This document shows positions 6,801-14,894 of a stretch of 25,287 bases of DNA, piece by piece (positions within the stretch are counted from its first letter, which is position 1; each line of letters opens with the position of its first letter). The notes under the pieces were generated by a model, which saw nothing but the letters and a program-made list of their open reading frames with translations, was not told the origin of the DNA and made no database searches. The stretch covers positions 1 through 25,287 of IMG/VR virus record IMGVR_UViG_3300020472_000154. The stretch is one strand, 5' to 3'. The position numbers were made by a program, and so were the translations under genes. Source of the stretch: a virus.

Positions 6801-7351
6801 TGCTGATTGTTTATTATTGTTTTTACATGAGAATCTAATACTAAACAATCATCATTGAATAATTGTATATTTTCTATTTTATATGTTCGTCTTATTACAC
6901 TTATAAATTCAATAATACTATGTAACTGTTGACCGTTTGCACAAGCCCAACCTGTTCTATCGTTAGTGCATCTGATCCAATCGTTTTCAACAGGATCTCC
7001 CCACCAAGTTCTCCATATACCATTTGCATCTTCATGTAACGGACCTGGGTTAATTAATTCTACTAATACTGTGTTAGCATCATGATCGCCTTTTAAACAT
7101 TTTAATGGCAATTGATGTTGTACAATAGCACCATCTTCGCCTATAATAAAATGAGCACCATCATTTGTTGTACCTTGTTGATAATATATTGCTTGTCCTA
7201 ATGCATTTAATACACCATTACTAGTACGTAATTTTATAGAATTAGCTTCTTGATCTGATAACATATCGTCAGGCGGAGAATATGCTCCCTTAACCCAATC
7301 ACGTTTATCAGGAGATATCCAAAGTCTGTGTTCATGAAATTTATACTTCAT
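6788..7351 (-). CDS. N-acetylmuramoyl-L-alanine amidase-like (Amidase_2/PGRP fold) protein
   Basis: A 187-aa protein whose centre, DGAHFIIGEDGAIVQHQL followed by DANTVLVELINPGPL, matches the core of Amidase_2/T7-lysozyme domains (sHyvIgxdGxIyQ...vGIEl.NpG). These zinc enzymes cleave the peptide stem from peptidoglycan. The zinc ligands are doubtful. The position usually holding the first His (IVIHHTA) reads IKLRTSNG, and no clear distal H...C/D pair is seen; SHVKTIIN near the C-terminus is the only candidate. It could be a non-catalytic binder or a derived enzyme. There is no signal peptide. The start overlaps the DUF6356-like gene by 11 bp. Confidence 0.55.
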   Translation of the reverse strand: MKYKFHEHRLWISPDKRDWVKGAYSPPDDMLSDQEANSIKLRTSNGVLNALGQAIYYQQGTTNDGAHFIIGEDGAIVQHQLPLKCLKGDHDANTVLVELINPGPLHEDANGIWRTWWGDPVENDWIRCTNDRTGWACANGQQLHSIIEFISVIRRTYKIENIQLFNDDCLVLDSHVKTIINNQQWQK

Positions 7352-7604
7352 CAGTAAATTTAATTTGTTTCCATATCTCTAAATTCGGTAGTGCTTTATT
7401 CAATCTTTTTAACATATCTATTTGCCATTGTATCATATCAAACCCGTATAAGAACGGAAAAAAGCTATGTACAAAGGCGGCAAAAGTTGCGTATGCTAAA
7501 AACATTGTTTCTTTTAATCCTAACCACATGTGCTTAAAATAATCGCTAACTTTGACAGCTTTAGTACTGCCACTTGCTAACTTTGCTTCCTTCAAATGAC
7601 CCAT
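7341..7604 (-). CDS. DUF6356-like small membrane protein
   Basis: An 87-aa protein. After a polar N-terminus it reads VSDYFKHMWLGLKETMFLAY (residues ~19-38), then ATFAAFVHSFFPFLYG, then IDMLKRLNKAL. The pattern of Y-x-x-H-M, a hydrophobic helix and a VHxxFPFL motif agrees with what I remember of DUF6356, a family of unknown function in alphaproteobacteria and marine phages. The ATG at 7604 is chosen because AGGAG lies seven bases upstream. It overlaps the C-terminal codons of the ANL enzyme by 44 bp. Confidence 0.6.
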   Translation of the reverse strand: MGHLKEAKLASGSTKAVKVSDYFKHMWLGLKETMFLAYATFAAFVHSFFPFLYGFDMIQWQIDMLKRLNKALPNLEIWKQIKFTDEV

Positions 7605-8571
7605 CACTAAACTCCTGTGTTCGATCTATTTTTCGTAGATTATTATCTACTTTTATTTCTTGTACTTTATGATATCTAACTTTAGGTATCTCTCCTAAAT
7701 CTAATTTAGATTTACTTAATGTGCCTGTGTAGTATATTGTACAATAACCATTTACTTGTCTGCATAATGCTAAATCTGCACCAGCACTTACTACTTTACG
7801 TTCTATTTGTTCTGGATAAACACGTATACCACATTCACCCATTTTAAACATATTCAATTCACGGCCTACTAACTTATATCCGTTATCTGTTTCTTCTACT
7901 AAATCTCCACTACGCCAAGGTCTATCTTGTACTTTCCAACGTGCTATGATTTGTCCATCTTCTATATGTACTTCGCAATCTGGATTGCTATCTAATGTAT
8001 AAGTGTTTGCAACTTCACTCATTAATACATTAGGAGGTACTTCTGTTGCACCATAAACATTGTAAACACTTTGAGCACCTTTGCTACGTAAATCTTCTAA
8101 GCAACCATCAGCAGTATAATCACTTCCAACAATGCATTGTTCATAACTGCTTAAATCTAAAGTGGCCCAACGCCTGTGCTTATGTAATACACGCCACATA
8201 TTAGGAAGTATTAATCCGTGTGTAGGTCTTATTTCATGCACACGATCTATAAAACGAGGCGATACATCTGTTTCTATATATAAATCACAATTAGCTAATA
8301 TACAAGGATATAAACTCATTGTAGTAAATGCTATGCCTCTTGTACTGTATAAACTTAACATTTTACTTCTATCTGTTAAGCCAAACCAATCAGCATTAAA
8401 TTTACTAATATGTTCAATTACTTCCGGGGAATGTGTTACAGAATGAGGATGTCCTGTTGTACCACTTGTAGTACAAGTAACTTCCATGTTTTCTATTTTT
8501 TCTATTATGTGACTTCTGAAATGATCGTTGTCACTTTCTAGGTACGGGGTTCCGTCTATGTATATTTCCAT
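7561..8571 (-). CDS. Minimal ANL-superfamily adenylating enzyme
   Basis: A 336-aa AMP-forming ligase of the acyl-CoA synthetase/NRPS-adenylation superfamily. Core motifs in order are TTSGTTGHPHS (A3, residues 34-44), YGATE (A5, 173-177), WRSGDLVE (A7, 219-226), GRELNMFKMGECGIRVYPEQ (A8, 236-255) and NLRKIDR (A10, Lys314). It is far shorter than the usual 500-600 aa. The 150-200 residues normally before A3 are missing, yet the C-terminal subdomain with its catalytic Lys is kept. Such enzymes activate a carboxylic acid as an acyl-adenylate. No carrier-protein gene is visible, so the acceptor may be CoA, an amine or a host carrier. It lies 16 bp downstream of the halogenase. Confidence 0.85.
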   Translation of the reverse strand: MEIYIDGTPYLESDNDHFRSHIIEKIENMEVTCTTSGTTGHPHSVTHSPEVIEHISKFNADWFGLTDRSKMLSLYSTRGIAFTTMSLYPCILANCDLYIETDVSPRFIDRVHEIRPTHGLILPNMWRVLHKHRRWATLDLSSYEQCIVGSDYTADGCLEDLRSKGAQSVYNVYGATEVPPNVLMSEVANTYTLDSNPDCEVHIEDGQIIARWKVQDRPWRSGDLVEETDNGYKLVGRELNMFKMGECGIRVYPEQIERKVVSAGADLALCRQVNGYCTIYYTGTLSKSKLDLGEIPKVRYHKVQEIKVDNNLRKIDRTQEFSDGSFEGSKVSKWQY

Positions 8572-8587
8572 TATTCAATTACGTAGT

Positions 8588-10294
8588 TCATGATGCCTTT
8601 AGATACTTATGTTGAACACCTGTCATTTGATGAGCGTCTTCTAATATCTCATGTGGTTCAGCACCGTCATACAAATGGTCTCTGGAATATTCATACACAT
8701 TTGGTGCATACTTGGCAATAGCTGTTTGTTTTTCTTTGAGATATTTGAAATCAATCTCTGCCAGAGGTAGAATGTCAGGATCTATGTTCAGTTTGCAAAT
8801 ATCATCGTCCCACCTATCCAAATAACGGTGTTGCTGAGCCCATTGATAATCCAAATAAATGTTTCTTCCTAGATATGATCTAGGTGACTTATACCAATCC
8901 CAATTCCTTTGTATGTGATCATTTGCCAATCCATATTCTCCCCACTTTTGCCACAGTGGATGATCTCTACGTTTTGAAAGTGTGTAATGAAAACTCACAA
9001 AGTCTGCTGTCTGATTTTCTAACTTTTGTACCTGTCTTGAATATGCTCTTTTGGTAAAATCAGTGATGATTCCACCTTTGTATTTGTTCAGTGCTTTGTC
9101 CAACAATTCCATGCCACTCTGTGCAATGTATATTGAATTGGCTTCCATTGGATCAATGAAACCTTGAGCCATGCCAATGCCACAAACATTTTTTGTCCAT
9201 GCTTGATCAAAATAACCCTGCTCCCATTGTATAAGTTTAGGATCTCTGAGCATTTTGTATCCATCCCAATATCGTATAAAACGTTCACGAGCTGAATCTG
9301 GGTCTTCTGAGTTTTTATCAAATATATAACCAGAACCCATTCTACTGTATAATGTAATAATAAAATTCCAGCCATTTGCTTGTGCATACGACTGTGTGTA
9401 CGGTCGCATTTCTGTTTTAGGATCATTGTATGCAATAGGACATACCCACGCAGATTGTGTGGGCAAGTGTTCCATGGCATTCCATTTTTCTTCCATTGTT
9501 TTCATTATTATACGATTAAATCCTGTGCAATCCAGAAATAAATCGCCGCCAATGGTTCTACCATCACGTAACTGTAATGATGTAACATAACCATCTTCGT
9601 CTTTATGAATGTGTTCAACGTGTCCTTCTGTGTGTTTAACACCCAGAGGCATCGCAACTTGATTTCTAACAATCAAAGGAAAACGTTCAGCATCTACATG
9701 CCAAGCATACGAATGCCAATCACCCAATAAAAAATCGCCATTGTTATCATAAGGTGATTTATTATTGACAGCCAATTGATATTGTTCTGTTACATGATCA
9801 GATGTTTCCCACCATTTGTATTTGCCCTGTCTAACTAATTCTAGCCAATAATCATAACTCTTATGATCTATTCCAAATGTGTTATCTGAATCATAAAAGA
9901 AATCATCTTTCTTAAGACTGCCATAATAAGAATTTTTAAATGCTTTGTCACGCCATGTGTATGAAAAAGCATAATATTGTTGTTCAGTGATGTCACAGTC
10001 CCAGTGATTTTGCACACGTGGCATGGGCTTTTCTGTGTTCCATGCACCAAACATATTACCAAGTTTGTATATACTGTGTGTGCCTTGCATCCATTTCTTT
10101 TCATCGACATCCAGCCATTCTAGCATGTCGCCGAGTTGAGGTATGGTGCTCTCTCCTACTCCTAAAATTGGAACATACGGAGACTCTACTAATTCTACAC
10201 TTAACTCTGGGTGCTTCTTTTTCATTGTGGCCGCTGTAAACCAGCCGATCACCCCACCACCTAATATTGTAATTGATTTAATTTCTTTTTTCAT
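8588..10294 (-). CDS. Flavin-dependent (tryptophan-type) halogenase
   Basis: A 568-aa protein of the FAD-dependent tryptophan halogenase family, close to full length. The N-terminal FAD loop is LGGGVIGWFT (residues 11-20). VGESTIPQLGDMLEWL is the family-typical second motif, and THSIYKLG holds Lys77, equivalent to the catalytic Lys79 of PrnA. DPMEANSIY holds Glu384, equivalent to PrnA Glu346. The WxWxIP signature is altered to WNFIITL (309-315). Family members make hypohalous acid from reduced flavin, oxygen and halide. A cyanophage member (VirX1) has been studied and halogenates free substrates. A partner flavin reductase is not seen here. The start overlaps the preceding small gene as ATGA. 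Confidence 0.92.
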   Translation of the reverse strand: MKKEIKSITILGGGVIGWFTAATMKKKHPELSVELVESPYVPILGVGESTIPQLGDMLEWLDVDEKKWMQGTHSIYKLGNMFGAWNTEKPMPRVQNHWDCDITEQQYYAFSYTWRDKAFKNSYYGSLKKDDFFYDSDNTFGIDHKSYDYWLELVRQGKYKWWETSDHVTEQYQLAVNNKSPYDNNGDFLLGDWHSYAWHVDAERFPLIVRNQVAMPLGVKHTEGHVEHIHKDEDGYVTSLQLRDGRTIGGDLFLDCTGFNRIIMKTMEEKWNAMEHLPTQSAWVCPIAYNDPKTEMRPYTQSYAQANGWNFIITLYSRMGSGYIFDKNSEDPDSARERFIRYWDGYKMLRDPKLIQWEQGYFDQAWTKNVCGIGMAQGFIDPMEANSIYIAQSGMELLDKALNKYKGGIITDFTKRAYSRQVQKLENQTADFVSFHYTLSKRRDHPLWQKWGEYGLANDHIQRNWDWYKSPRSYLGRNIYLDYQWAQQHRYLDRWDDDICKLNIDPDILPLAEIDFKYLKEKQTAIAKYAPNVYEYSRDHLYDGAEPHEILEDAHQMTGVQHKYLKAS

Positions 10295-10512
10295 ACTACC
10301 TCTGCTACTTCACTTTGTACCATTTGCAAGTACTCTCTGTCGTCATCTGACAGAACTCTATAAAACTTACTTATTGTAGGGATTATCTGTTCGCACGTTT
10401 CATAATCCCCTAATTCAAAAAAATGTTGTAATTCATCCATACGAGATTTAATTTTTTCCTCGATTGGAATCTTTTCGTTGTAACTATAGTTATCTTCTGA
10501 GTTCGTATTCAA
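10291..10512 (-). CDS. Small conserved acidic protein, coupled to the halogenase
   Basis: About 73 aa, reading EEKIKSRMDELQHFF, GDYETCEQIIPTISKFYRVL and SDDDREYLQMVQ. It is an acidic, helical protein reminiscent of a small family near the replication genes of T4-like marine phages. The start is uncertain. TTG at 10512 gives a 23-bp overlap with the GNAT gene. An ATG at 10563 would overlap it by 74 bp, and an ATG at 10452 would cut into the conserved helix. Its stop overlaps the halogenase start (ATGA), so translation of the two is probably coupled. Function unknown. Confidence 0.6.
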   Translation of the reverse strand: MNTNSEDNYSYNEKIPIEEKIKSRMDELQHFFELGDYETCEQIIPTISKFYRVLSDDDREYLQMVQSEVAEVV

Positions 10513-10903
10513 AATTATAACTTTCTGCGTTATCTTGTAGCAATGTTGCTCCGTTACGTTCATGGAACCTTTTTGCCATTTCTGTTTTAGGACTCATTGT
10601 AATTAATCTATCAACAGATCCTGCATCTATAAACAAATCACGTAATTCAAAAATAATTTCTCTACCTGCTCCTGGTTTGTTACTCCATACTGTATAGGCG
10701 ACAGCAATATCGCCATATTCTTCTTTATATTCTTCTAACTCTATTTCTGTAGTTGGAACATCTTTACAATAGCAAACACACACTACTGCTGACAAATCAT
10801 CTAGAACGTACACTTGTTTGCCTTTTCCTGTTTTATCTACATTAGGTCTAACTGGATCTTCTTTAAGAATATCCATTTCCTTTATATTAATTAATCTTAT
10901 CAT
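10490..10903 (-). CDS. GNAT-family N-acetyltransferase
   Basis: A 137-aa protein. VYVLDDLSAVVCVCYC and DIAVAYTVWSNKPGAGREI contain the central strands and the acetyl-CoA loop of GNAT proteins (K-P-G-A-G-R at the start of helix 3). MSPKTEMAKRFHERNGATLL is the typical C-terminal helix before the last strand YNFEYEL. GNATs transfer acetyl or other acyl groups to amines. The substrate is unknown; in this setting it could be a small molecule, a tRNA or a protein. The ATG at 10903 overlaps the upstream gene by 17 bp, and its ribosome binding site is weak. Confidence 0.75.
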   Translation of the reverse strand: MIRLINIKEMDILKEDPVRPNVDKTGKGKQVYVLDDLSAVVCVCYCKDVPTTEIELEEYKEEYGDIAVAYTVWSNKPGAGREIIFELRDLFIDAGSVDRLITMSPKTEMAKRFHERNGATLLQDNAESYNFEYELRR

Positions 10904-11900
10904 ACTCTTTATAATATACCTCTGGATCAAACTCTATTTCTACTACGTCATGACAAAGTTTGTCTGTATGGTATGTTTGTCTACTCCGTTCTTGTTCCAT
11001 TTTAATTAAAAACCAATCATATACTTCTTGATGGTTGTCTACTAATGCCATATTTGCGTCATAATATTTGTCTATTAAATCCGAAAATATAGAAATTTTA
11101 TGGTTTATCTTTAACCAATCGCATAACATATAATAGGCGGCTTTCTCTCTCTTTATAAAAAAATCATCATATAATATACTATAGCAGTCACACACCGGTT
11201 TGTCAATGAACAAATGCATACTATTATGACCATTAGAAAATTCATTTTCTAAATATTGCCATCTGCTCTCGTATATATCTAATAAAATCCATATGTCTCC
11301 TAGCGTTTTTAATTTACCTGCACTTATCCATTCTTCGCACATAGCACGATTTTCTTTAGTGTCCATATCTAAATCACGTAATGTAAATAAACATTCTTGT
11401 ATACCGGGTACAGGATGCTCCCATTGTTTAATAACATCTAATGTTCTATAAAAGGCGTGGTCGTTATTACCACGTGGTACTATACTTAATAACTGGTGTT
11501 TAGGATCTAGTATATTTTGCAAAATATAATTAGGGCAATGTGTTTGTGCAAACATTCTATCCCATTGATTATATTCGCTATCAGGATCATTTCTTAATAC
11601 ATCTAAGCACTTAGCCATTATACTGGAATGTGCTTCTAATTTTCCAATTCGTTTTGCATCATAATCAAATGTTGCTTTTTGCATGACATGTTCAGCATTG
11701 AATAATGGCATACTACTAATATATTCATTATTTTCAGGTATATGTCTATCAAACTGCTGAAAGAATCCTGTATGCTGTCCTAATAGATATTGTAAAAAGT
11801 TTGCACCTGCACCTCCGTCTTGTGCAAGAAACACAACTTGTTTAACTATCCTATCGACTGTCCATACACGTGGATCAATATCAAGTCTATGAGAGTTCAT
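10887..11900 (-). CDS. P-loop, sulfotransferase-like protein (tentative)
   Basis: A 337-aa soluble protein. VVFLAQDGGAGANFLQYLLG (about residues 22-41) is a strand, glycine-rich loop and helix like the 5'-phosphosulfate-binding loop of sulfotransferases. The rest is helical and rich in aromatic residues, with two Cys in KPVCDCYSILYDDFF. A protein of similar length and plan is at 20318-21298. A sulfotransferase would move a sulfuryl group from PAPS, which a marine host can supply, but the 3'-phosphate motif is not obvious. The ATG at 11900 overlaps thyX by 14 bp without a clear ribosome binding site. Confidence 0.4.
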   Translation of the reverse strand: MNSHRLDIDPRVWTVDRIVKQVVFLAQDGGAGANFLQYLLGQHTGFFQQFDRHIPENNEYISSMPLFNAEHVMQKATFDYDAKRIGKLEAHSSIMAKCLDVLRNDPDSEYNQWDRMFAQTHCPNYILQNILDPKHQLLSIVPRGNNDHAFYRTLDVIKQWEHPVPGIQECLFTLRDLDMDTKENRAMCEEWISAGKLKTLGDIWILLDIYESRWQYLENEFSNGHNSMHLFIDKPVCDCYSILYDDFFIKREKAAYYMLCDWLKINHKISIFSDLIDKYYDANMALVDNHQEVYDWFLIKMEQERSRQTYHTDKLCHDVVEIEFDPEVYYKEYDKIN

Positions 11901-12579
11901 TTGCTAAAGGAAATATTTCTGCTATAACTTTGGCACACGCATGAGCAATCTCCATGTGTTCCTTTTGCGTACCATGTCCACCACGTAATTCAATGTAATG
12001 TACCCAACTACGCAATGTACCATTCATGTATAGTCTTGTTTTGGTTAAGCCTTCAGGCAAAACAACACGAGCTTGTTCTTTAGCAATCCCGTTTTCGATA
12101 GCCCACTTGTAGGCATCTTTTGCTTCTTGTATTACTTTGTTTTGGTAGCTACTCCAAATCATTGCTAGACGTACATCTTCTTGATTATTTTCATCCAAGT
12201 CTACACTATTTTGTCTATTCTTTTTATCCTGCATACGAGCTTCACGATGTACAAACATATCACCTAATTCATTTACATCAGCATAACGTTGACTAAACTC
12301 TTGGAAACTAAAACTTCTATGTCTTACTATTTGGTGTGCAATATCTCTTGTAGTGTTTATTTCTAAACAAGCATTAACCATTTCTAGTGGTGACCAATGC
12401 TGATGTTTAATTAAATATTTTATTAATTTTTCATTTGTTTCTTTATTGTTTTGATTAGCTGGATTGCTTACTCTGGCACAATAAGCAACAAGGTCTTGAC
12501 AGTTTTCTACGTCATGCCTACTTGTTGGTACTGTGAAAAAGTCTGCTGGTTTAGTATAGCTTATTAGTTTAACTTGCAA
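11887..12579 (-). CDS. thyX: FAD-dependent thymidylate synthase ThyX
   Basis: A 230-aa flavin-dependent thymidylate synthase, which methylates dUMP to dTMP with methylene-tetrahydrofolate and NAD(P)H. The family signature RHRSFSFQEFSQRY is at residues 86-99. The C-terminal RLYMNGTLRSWVHYIELR followed by GTQKEHMEIA matches the dUMP/FAD-binding Arg and the ELR...Q.E segment. I start the gene at TTG 12579, since AGGAG lies seven bases upstream and the next codons give QVKLISYTKP. The longer frame to 12615 would run inside the upstream gene. It overlaps that gene by 11 bp. Phage ThyX is common in T4-like marine phages. Confidence 0.96.
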   Translation of the reverse strand: MQVKLISYTKPADFFTVPTSRHDVENCQDLVAYCARVSNPANQNNKETNEKLIKYLIKHQHWSPLEMVNACLEINTTRDIAHQIVRHRSFSFQEFSQRYADVNELGDMFVHREARMQDKKNRQNSVDLDENNQEDVRLAMIWSSYQNKVIQEAKDAYKWAIENGIAKEQARVVLPEGLTKTRLYMNGTLRSWVHYIELRGGHGTQKEHMEIAHACAKVIAEIFPLANELS

Positions 12580-13654
12580 AATAATTCTCCTGATTGCCTT
12601 CTCGATGTATATCAAGTGTTATGCAGTGAAGTCCACCATCCCAAAACCATCTATACTTCCAAGGTATTACTGTATAGTCACTGCCTAAAGGTTTTGGTGG
12701 TGTGTTTGAAACGTAAACATGTCCTTCATCTCTTACTAAACAATTTACGTCAAAAAACGATTCTGATATATTTCCTGTCCAATGTTCTATTTGTTTATTA
12801 ACAAATCGTAATGTTTCTATTTCTTTTAATTCATCTTGTGTTAAACTATCAAACTCTGGTTTATGTTGTATAAAATTCCAATTTGGAAATGTATCTTTAT
12901 ATAAAGTTGTTCTACTTTTACTTGTTAATGCTGTTCCGGGTCTAAGTACAGCAAATTGTCCGTCACTATGTCGACCATCTACGTATCCGCTTCTATGTAC
13001 GTCTGTATTATATTGAATACTTAATGCTTTAGCAAATGTATCAGGGCCTAAGCACTTTTCTATTTGTGGAGTTTCATGTACTGCTTCTTCAATAATAACC
13101 TTTTTGCCTAATCTAACAATACTAGGAGGAACTAAGCCCAGCCAATGATCTGTGTTAATAAATCTAACGTCATAACCATTTAAAATATATTCGTTTAATG
13201 TATTTCCCCACCATGCCATTGCTCTGTTATAACTTAAATTAACAAACAATGTTTGTCCGTATACTATAAAATTATCTCTAGGATTCATTTCAGGTACATG
13301 ATGTTTTTTACGATCTTCTCTTTTAAAATAATATCCTAATTCTTTTTTAAACTTTTCGAAGTTACCTGTACTAACAACATGTTTGTCAAATATTTCTTCA
13401 AAGTAGTCTTTATGTGTTTGCCAATTATCAAATACTTCTTTTGGACCTGGCATACAAGGTCTACGCACTAATATACCATCGTCTTCCATTATACGTTGAA
13501 ATGTATTAAGTTGTTCTTCTGTTACATTTGTTATGTTACGTAAGTTTTCTTGGTCCTTAGTATCTGTAAATATAACTTCTTCCCAGCCAGCTGGCCATGG
13601 TGCTCCTAACCATACTTCTTTGAGTGGTTGAAAACCTGTCCAGCTATTGATCAT
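12569..13654 (-). CDS. Glycine amidinotransferase-like pentein enzyme (catalytic residues present)
   Basis: A 361-aa protein of the amidinotransferase (GATM/AGAT-like) superfamily. Key residues are in order: PRDN at 125-128 (Asp127), HSDGQFAVLRPG at 229-240 (His229 and Asp231, in the HxD position), and GGLHCITLDI at 340-349 with Cys344, the nucleophile position of AGAT. AGAT moves an amidino group from arginine to glycine or other amines; related penteins hydrolyse guanidines. A shorter start is favoured: ATG 13654, with GGAG eight bases before it, overlapping the 55-aa gene by 11 bp. The paralogue at 13812-14894 lacks the Cys. The actual acceptor amine is unknown. Confidence 0.85.
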   Translation of the reverse strand: MINSWTGFQPLKEVWLGAPWPAGWEEVIFTDTKDQENLRNITNVTEEQLNTFQRIMEDDGILVRRPCMPGPKEVFDNWQTHKDYFEEIFDKHVVSTGNFEKFKKELGYYFKREDRKKHHVPEMNPRDNFIVYGQTLFVNLSYNRAMAWWGNTLNEYILNGYDVRFINTDHWLGLVPPSIVRLGKKVIIEEAVHETPQIEKCLGPDTFAKALSIQYNTDVHRSGYVDGRHSDGQFAVLRPGTALTSKSRTTLYKDTFPNWNFIQHKPEFDSLTQDELKEIETLRFVNKQIEHWTGNISESFFDVNCLVRDEGHVYVSNTPPKPLGSDYTVIPWKYRWFWDGGLHCITLDIHREGNQENYFAS

Positions 13655-13811
13655 ATTTTCTTCTCCATTCAACGTAGGCTTGTATCTTAAGCTCGTATTC
13701 GCATACTTTAGGATAATTTAAACTTAATTTACGTTCTTCTATTATACGTTTAAGCCATGCAGGATTAGCAGTACAGTCTAAATAGAATTTTTCGTAAGTT
13801 GGTCTTTCCAA
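13644..13811 (-). CDS. Small basic/aromatic protein between the two penteins (TTG start)
   Basis: A 55-aa ORF that fills the gap between the two pentein genes. It reads (M)ERPTYEKFYLDCTANPAW, then LKRIIEERKLSLNYP, and ends YVEWRRKYDQ. The TTG at 13811 directly follows the stop codon of the upstream gene, with GAGG six bases before it. It runs to a TAG at 13644, overlapping the next gene by 11 bp. It has no ATG and is soluble, basic and helix-rich. The tight fit between its neighbours and the good ribosome binding site argue that it is real. Function unknown; a partner of the pentein pair is possible. Confidence 0.6.
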   Translation of the reverse strand: MERPTYEKFYLDCTANPAWLKRIIEERKLSLNYPKVCEYELKIQAYVEWRRKYDQ

Positions 13812-14894
13812 TTAGATCCTCGTTAAGTCTGCAATGTATCCACGCAAACTATGACCCCATAGATATTTGTGTCTAAAAGGCACACTTATTAAATCTACAT
13901 TAAATGCTTTTAAAGCATCAGCTTGATCTTTATCTGTTCCCATAGTCATATAAGTTTCTCTATTAAGGGAAACGCCGTCTTGTTCAAAAGGTGTTACGCC
14001 CATTGTAAAGTTTGCCCAATATTGACAAAATGCTTGAACTTCTTTTAAAATATTTTCGTCGCCTGTTTCTATAAAACGATCTAGCCACCATTTATTACTG
14101 TTTAATTTTAACATTTCAGAAATAGCACTATTAATAAATGTATCCATTTGAGTAATATTTTTTGTTTCACGTAACCATTTTTGACTAGACATTCCATAAC
14201 TGTATACTTTAGGTATATCTAAACAAGCCTGTGGGCCTTTATCTTCATCATGTCCACTATAATGTATTAAATCTTCACGGATCCATTTAATGAAATTTTG
14301 TCCGTTATCTTCTTCTACTATTAATTCTGTACTTTCTGGCAACATACTTTTTAATATTTCTATTTGCTTTTCGTTTAGTTCTTCACTATCAGCCCAAACA
14401 GTATTGCCTAAACGTTGTACACTTTGAAAAGGAAACTTTTTAAGACTTGTATTATTAGGATCTCTTTCTACTGTTATACCACGTGATTCAAGTTTATTAA
14501 AAATACTACCATATTCAACATCTTTTTCTTCGCAAGTATATAACTTATTATTAAATAACCATAAGTCAAATCCTGGTGTCATTGGAGCATCTACGTTTGC
14601 AAGTAAATCAAACATTGTACTACTGTTTGTATTATCATCTTGCCCAGTCATGTCACCAACAATTAATTCTTTTTGTACATCGGCTGTATCAGGCTTATAA
14701 ACTGTTATACCCTGTTGGTTTAATGTTTTTTCTATACTTGCTAAATCTTCTAATACTTCTTCGCTTATACGTTTAAATATATCACGTATAGTATTAACGC
14801 CGGCATCTTCTAAATGAAACCAGTCGTCCCAAAAGTCAGGTGTATAAAAGTCTGCAAGTACACATTCTTTTAAAGTTCCATATTCGTGAAGCAT
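13812..14894 (-). CDS. Degenerate amidinotransferase-like pentein (catalytic Cys missing)
   Basis: A 360-aa protein related to the gene at 12569-13654. Its start, MLHEYGTLKECVLADF, is the typical opening strand of amidinotransferases. The C-terminus aligns without gaps: PFRHKYLWGHSLRGYIADLTR here against PWKYRWFWDGGLHCITLDIH there. At the catalytic positions His-Cys have become Arg351-Gly352. The HxDG motif is also not evident, though LIHYSGHDED may be its remnant. It is probably not a working amidinotransferase or deiminase; a regulatory or structural partner of the active paralogue, or a new activity, are possibilities. It lies 24 bp downstream of the tmRNA and has AGGA before its ATG. Confidence 0.65.
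   Translation of the reverse strand: MLHEYGTLKECVLADFYTPDFWDDWFHLEDAGVNTIRDIFKRISEEVLEDLASIEKTLNQQGITVYKPDTADVQKELIVGDMTGQDDNTNSSTMFDLLANVDAPMTPGFDLWLFNNKLYTCEEKDVEYGSIFNKLESRGITVERDPNNTSLKKFPFQSVQRLGNTVWADSEELNEKQIEILKSMLPESTELIVEEDNGQNFIKWIREDLIHYSGHDEDKGPQACLDIPKVYSYGMSSQKWLRETKNITQMDTFINSAISEMLKLNSNKWWLDRFIETGDENILKEVQAFCQYWANFTMGVTPFEQDGVSLNRETYMTMGTDKDQADALKAFNVDLISVPFRHKYLWGHSLRGYIADLTRI

Follow-up and report, generated by a model that had tools for sequence, protein, structure and literature searches.

Neighboring halogenase and ligase genes in the window

The IMG/VR virus record IMGVR_UViG_3300020472_000154, from a marine bacterial virus and apparently a fragment, was analyzed over positions 1-25,287 (hereafter the window), and on its minus strand a protein of the flavin-dependent-halogenase family (HAL) and a short adenylate-forming ligase of the ANL superfamily (LIG) are encoded by neighboring genes. 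In downstream order, this strand carries a 146-amino-acid (aa) open reading frame (ORF), a small ORF, HAL, LIG and a DUF6356 ORF (Table 1). The terminal TGA of the small ORF overlaps the start ATG of HAL (ATGA), and a gap of 16 bp separates HAL from LIG; both junctions and the coordinates of the stretch had been given in an earlier note made from the sequence alone, and they were confirmed when the window was re-checked.

HAL scores 286.6 bits against PF04820, for which the curated cut-off is 21, and contains the GxGxxG motif (GGGVIG, residues 12-17). Its PDB matches include tryptophan halogenases, down to E=3e-58, and VirX1 (E=4.6e-48), and the two catalytic residues, K77 and E384, align with those of Thal and are invariant in 20 relatives. 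The WxWxIP motif is not found in HAL, which has WNFIIT; ligase-linked HALs mostly read WxFxI[T/S/P/G], and ligase-free viral HALs mostly WxWxIP. This motif is missing from some proven halogenases (PMC8407142), and the membership of HAL in the superfamily stands without it, halogenating activity being less sure. The best PDB matches are the free-substrate tryptophan halogenases Thal, RebH and PrnA, which have the catalytic lysine and glutamate and the GxGxxG motif in common with HAL. Unlike these enzymes, ligase-linked HALs have a changed WxWxIP motif and, in 54 of 54 cases, no Trp4 motif, which anchors tryptophan (PMC8269204); for these two reasons HAL is not filed here as a tryptophan halogenase. 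Halogenases that use carrier-bound substrates form a separate class (PMC8407142), and no carrier-dependent (PltA-type, variant B) enzyme was present among the 30 PDB sequence matches of HAL. By these comparisons HAL is more like free-substrate halogenases than carrier-dependent ones, and a carrier-bound substrate, which the earlier note described as frequent in this family, is not supported. Close known systems are VirX1 of cyanophage Syn10 and the other cyanophage 'tryptophan halogenases' grouped with it. VirX1 shares PF04820 with HAL, in T4-like marine phages, and the two proteins can be aligned almost to the C-terminus; however, they are only ~26% identical, VirX1 groups with the ligase-free HALs in the tree, and no annotated ligase or acyltransferase gene adjoins it in Syn10.

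LIG matches PF00501 only at profile positions 162-337 of 384. Retained are motifs A3 (TSGTTGHP), A5 (YGATE), A7 (SGD), A8 (GR...FK...VYPEQIE) and the A10 lysine (LRKIDR), and in an alignment of 29 distinct relatives, the first-survey set after sequences more than 92% identical had been dropped, these motifs are invariant or nearly so, with S36, G37, T38, T39, G40 and P42 of A3 invariant throughout. A complete N-terminal domain before A3 is absent: about 30 residues precede A3 in the window LIG, ~65 in some relatives and ~120 in the full-length phage homologues of loci L093-L101. When the LIG profile was compared with the PDB, the top match was 7a9i (Cfl, E=1.1e-9), and in the best matches the aligned part begins near residue 150-240. 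The profile span and the alignment of relatives thus bear out the earlier description of LIG as a ligase that is missing the part before A3 and keeps A3 to A10. Because of this missing part, and since short members are known, we describe LIG as a short rather than a typical ANL protein. Such proteins are not new: PDB 4gs5 (358 aa) and the NCBIfam DVU_1553 family (331 aa) both share the adenylation motifs with LIG, although the similarity is weak for the former (E=0.0072) and far below the cut-off for the latter (E=3.4e-4). Cfl has the same adenylation motifs but is full-length. As A3, A5, A7, A8 and the A10 lysine are intact, LIG is predicted to be competent and should be capable of both adenylate-forming half-reactions. 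Its weak matches span the coronafacate ligase Cfl, fatty-acid ligases and feruloyl-coenzyme A (CoA) ligases, and a substrate cannot be read from them.

Table 1 Genes and motifs of the halogenase-ligase locus in the window.
Feature	Position	Strand	Basis
HAL, flavin-dependent-halogenase family, 568 aa	8588-10294	minus	PF04820 E=4.8e-85; PDB matches
HAL catalytic lysine K77, aligned to Thal K79	10064-10066	minus	invariant in 20 relatives
HAL catalytic glutamate E384 in FIDPMEANSIY	9143-9145	minus	Thal alignment; invariant
HAL WNFIIT, at the site of the canonical WxWxIP	9353-9370	minus	motif comparison of viral HALs
LIG, short adenylate-forming (ANL) ligase, 336 aa	7561-8571	minus	PF00501 E=1.4e-14; motifs A3-A10
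LIG motif A3 (P-loop) TSGTTGHP, residues 35-42	8446-8469	minus	alignment of 29 relatives
LIG A10 lysine K314 (LRKIDR)	7630-7632	minus	invariant in 29 relatives
DUF6356 small membrane protein, overlaps the end of LIG	7341-7607	minus	PF19883 match at cut-off
Small ORF, 73 aa from TTG	10291-10512 (10291-10563 if ATG start)	minus	ATGA overlap with HAL
146-aa protein, like the GNAT-fold domain of malonyl-CoA decarboxylase	10490-10930	minus	profile comparison with 4ksa

Conservation of the pair among viral contigs

Viral contigs were scanned with HAL, LIG and their alignments, and ~160 loci (L-numbered) were obtained. HALs that share 40% identity or more with the window HAL all have an adjacent ANL ligase, in most cases overlapping by 4 bp; the earlier note had named ligase-free orthologs in most relatives as the observation that would speak against a linked pair, and the reverse was found. 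Below ~33% identity, VirX1 included, HALs have no adjacent ligase, with the exception of a second small clade. When 67 HALs are placed in a tree, those with a linked ligase fall into two clades of 21 and 4 rows (Shimodaira-Hasegawa-like approximate likelihood ratio test, SH-aLRT, 99 each), and ligase linkage needs 2 changes, compared with ~20 in shuffles. The second clade is a biased sample, its rows having mostly been found via LIG; L113, which was found via HAL, shares a contig with one of them. HAL and LIG overlap by exactly 4 bp in 31 loci, and HAL lies within 60 bp of LIG in 32 of the 62 LIG loci with sufficient flank, a set whose counts include near-copies. HAL and LIG are thus a conserved and probably co-translated pair in many uncultured marine phages, and chance is ruled out, as the proteins and their adjacency are conserved in independent contigs.

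The presence of HAL switches at least four times on the LIG tree. L005 encodes a sister of the window LIG (support 97), yet its HAL falls in the second clade and its two genes stand in reverse order. Because of these switches, and because L005 combines a sister LIG with the other HAL clade, the pairing is read from the trees as broken and remade, which simple hitch-hiking does not easily explain; the HAL-LIG unit, with its overlapping genes, has been formed or re-formed more than once. A phage whose LIG has no HAL next to it may still encode one, since 4 of the 16 whole-searched records lacking an adjacent HAL (L017, L053, L072 and L070) have a HAL match elsewhere; the search covered 14 LIG records together with L070 and L080, and any of these records may be a fragment. 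In L002, the closest relative of the window, a class I aldolase-like ORF (L002:9164-9991) is inserted between HAL and LIG.

Neither LIG nor the GNAT-fold family fam3 was matched by any of 50,697 phage records. In the GTDB species genomes (84,980, bacterial and archaeal), no relative of LIG or of this HAL clade was detected by two scans, each with two short peptide patterns, which can miss divergent relatives. For the full-length ligase, annotated phages gave only low-identity matches to ordinary bacterial-type ligases, which we take to be host genes in those records. A role in anti-phage defense was discarded, no PADLOC match being obtained. The cassette is so far known from uncultured viruses only, and a recurrent combination of halogenase, short ligase and GNAT in phages was not described in the papers searched, among which subscription papers and preprints were sparsely covered. 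Each of the component enzymes belongs to a known superfamily.

Multiple halogenase-family genes were also observed on single contigs: three stand in tandem at L114:52-5268, on a viral contig of 5.7 kb, and the contigs of L111, L124, L132 and L142 have two or three each.

GNAT-fold partners, genomic contexts and larger clusters

Apart from HAL, a third gene was linked to LIG. A GNAT-fold acyltransferase is encoded in the operon in 58 of the 62 LIG loci and is the most constant partner of LIG, many LIGs being without an adjacent HAL; this partner is missing from the two-enzyme scheme of the earlier note. HAL and LIG both retain their catalytic residues, and most relatives add a GNAT-fold acyltransferase to them. 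The partners belong to two families, fam11 (~197 aa) and fam3 (~200 aa), whose AlphaFold models (mean pLDDT 82 and 80, respectively) both have the GNAT fold with a Foldseek probability of 1.00. Among the Foldseek matches of fam3 are FeeM (2g0b, TM ~0.5) and BjaI; among those of fam11, LasI ranks third and phage Mu Mom 48th. From these models the GNAT fold of both families is secure and the exact reaction is not. Homology between fam3 and fam11 was not significant by profile comparison (0.5% probability), and the fold alone is common to both. Matches of the fam3 profile to TAL effectors were judged to be a repeat or composition artifact, since the fold comparison gave GNAT.

In a first genomic context, which is rich in HAL, the HAL-LIG pair lies between a T4-like gp44 gene and what we take, by eye and position, to be gp62 and regA, and is followed by fam11; a fatty-acid desaturase gene is present too in 11 loci. 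In a second context, a tail-fiber-like gene is followed by LIG, often with a DUF6356 gene between the two, then in some loci by HAL, and then by fam3. T4-like phages are indicated by gp23, present in three of seven longer related records. Carrier-protein families were absent from six of the seven longer related records examined; in the L096 record, a PP-binding ORF is located far from the cluster. The tail-fiber locus of the second context (L062:4338-16633 and similar stretches) encodes many radical-SAM proteins and possible glycosyltransferases, which suggests heavy modification chemistry.

A larger gene set was observed in L093-L101, whose HALs are 41-46% identical to that of the window. Here, the genes for a full-length ANL ligase, HAL, a GNAT-like protein and a beta-ketoacyl synthase resembling FabF (PF00109, E=5.5e-37) are contiguous, as for example at L097:6624-11508, with a desaturase also in L094 and L095. 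By its gene content this set, carried in phage contigs, is by itself a small biosynthetic cluster. It suggests acyl or polyketide-like chemistry, and a lone two-enzyme reaction becomes less likely.

Of the other neighbors in the window, the DUF6356 protein is likely a component of the system. Its homologs (fam14) accompany LIG in 29 loci, with both lineages represented, and adjoin it where inspected; the copy in L050 was detected at E=2.2e-8, and the literature on DUF6356 yielded a passing mention only. It is a better candidate than the 146-aa ORF, of which a homolog is also found in L002 and whose profile matches malonyl-CoA decarboxylase (4ksa, E=6.3e-7), a GNAT-fold enzyme. The 146-aa protein is a possible acyltransferase of the cassette version found in the window, and its membership is uncertain because the family also occurs in L103 and L104, both of which are without LIG. 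The small ORF was rejected as a member: homologs are confined to the window, L002 and duplicates of the L002 contig, and the small protein had no match in the phage collection. The earlier proposal of a coupled cassette of halogenase, ligase and small protein therefore stands for the two enzymes and falls for the third, which is a feature of the closest relatives. Elsewhere in the window, two proteins of 367 and 360 aa (12569-13672 and 13812-14894) are unannotated and have no Pfam match; the former is amidinotransferase-like by eye, and L106 and L110 have a similar protein encoded close to a halogenase.

A candidate pathway and its alternatives

The interpretation that we favor, with a confidence somewhat short of even, is that a biosynthetic cassette carried by the phage includes HAL and LIG and most likely yields, within infected cells, a halogenated N-acyl (amide) compound. 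As knowledge of the families suggests, HAL, using flavin reduced by the host, would halogenate an electron-rich aromatic building block in its free form. LIG would adenylate an acid and then load the acyl group onto CoA or a host acyl carrier protein, and an amine would then receive this group from the GNAT-fold enzyme, in the manner of FeeM/LuxI-type synthases. These synthases share with the cassette the fold of the GNAT partner and the logic of an activated acid combined with a GNAT; to our knowledge, the Fee scheme has no halogenase. In the window, which lacks the usual GNAT, the last step might be performed by the 146-aa protein, by another enzyme, or by LIG itself through direct amide formation as in Cfl. 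FeeM-type enzymes convert acyl thioesters to N-acyl aromatic amino acids (PMC8762209), and for this reason a halogenated N-acyl amide would be the likeliest type of product.

Several observations weigh against this pathway. For the models of fam3 and fam11, general acetyltransferases are among the matches alongside FeeM, the identity between FeeM and fam3 is ~10%, and the Pfam FeeM profile scores fam3 far below its cut-off (12.3-13.1 bits compared with 27; E=0.08-0.15). The window is itself among the only four of the 62 LIG loci without a standard GNAT, the others being L002, L039 and L049. In about half of the LIG loci HAL is not located within 60 bp, and in those phages LIG would work without a neighboring HAL. 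Finally, WNFIIT replaces WxWxIP in HAL, and halogenation is thus itself a step that we infer.

It is also conceivable, if rather unlikely, that HAL and LIG share one aromatic acid, which would be adenylated or esterified to CoA by LIG and halogenated by HAL before or after activation, with no amide step. The overlapping genes, the co-inheritance of just HAL and LIG and the lack of a standard GNAT in the window are what this would lead one to expect, but the GNAT is a steadier partner of LIG than HAL is (58 vs 32 of 62 loci), HAL is most like free-substrate halogenases, and a carrier protein is absent from six of seven related records. We regard as improbable a scheme in which LIG and the GNAT acylate a part of the virion, such as the tail fiber or its glycan, with HAL as an added tailoring enzyme: one large group does have LIG-GNAT after a tail-fiber-like gene, near radical-SAM and possible glycosyltransferase genes, whereas in the HAL-rich group the cassette is placed between gp44 and gp62 and no structural gene is nearby. 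Nor do we give much credence to separate auxiliary genes exchanged as one block without a shared pathway. Phage gene blocks recombine, and each of the two genes is commonly found without the other, but two different HAL clades take part in the recurring pair, which shows either gene order, has 4-bp overlaps and turns up in unrelated genomic contexts. A modification of phage DNA, in which LIG would activate an acid, a Mom-like GNAT would put it on a base and HAL would halogenate, is very improbable: the cassette does lie among replication genes and Mom is one of the fam11 matches, but many ordinary GNATs outrank it, the cassette is found beside tail genes as well, and no DNA-binding feature was seen.

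Beyond the cassette for a halogenated N-acyl amide as such, it is possible, though on balance doubtful, that uncultured marine T4-like phages have a dedicated, modular natural-product pathway, composed of halogenase, ligase and N-acyltransferase, in some cases with ketosynthase and desaturase, whose halogenated N-acyl amide would serve during infection as a signal, a membrane-active agent or a weapon.

Halogenase genes are common in marine phages, and we know of no phage halogenase for which a natural substrate has been established. The fixed set of partners, a ligase and an acyltransferase, narrows the search to the acid used by LIG and to whether HAL halogenates the partner molecule. If confirmed, the pathway would mean that T4-like phages own small biosynthetic clusters.

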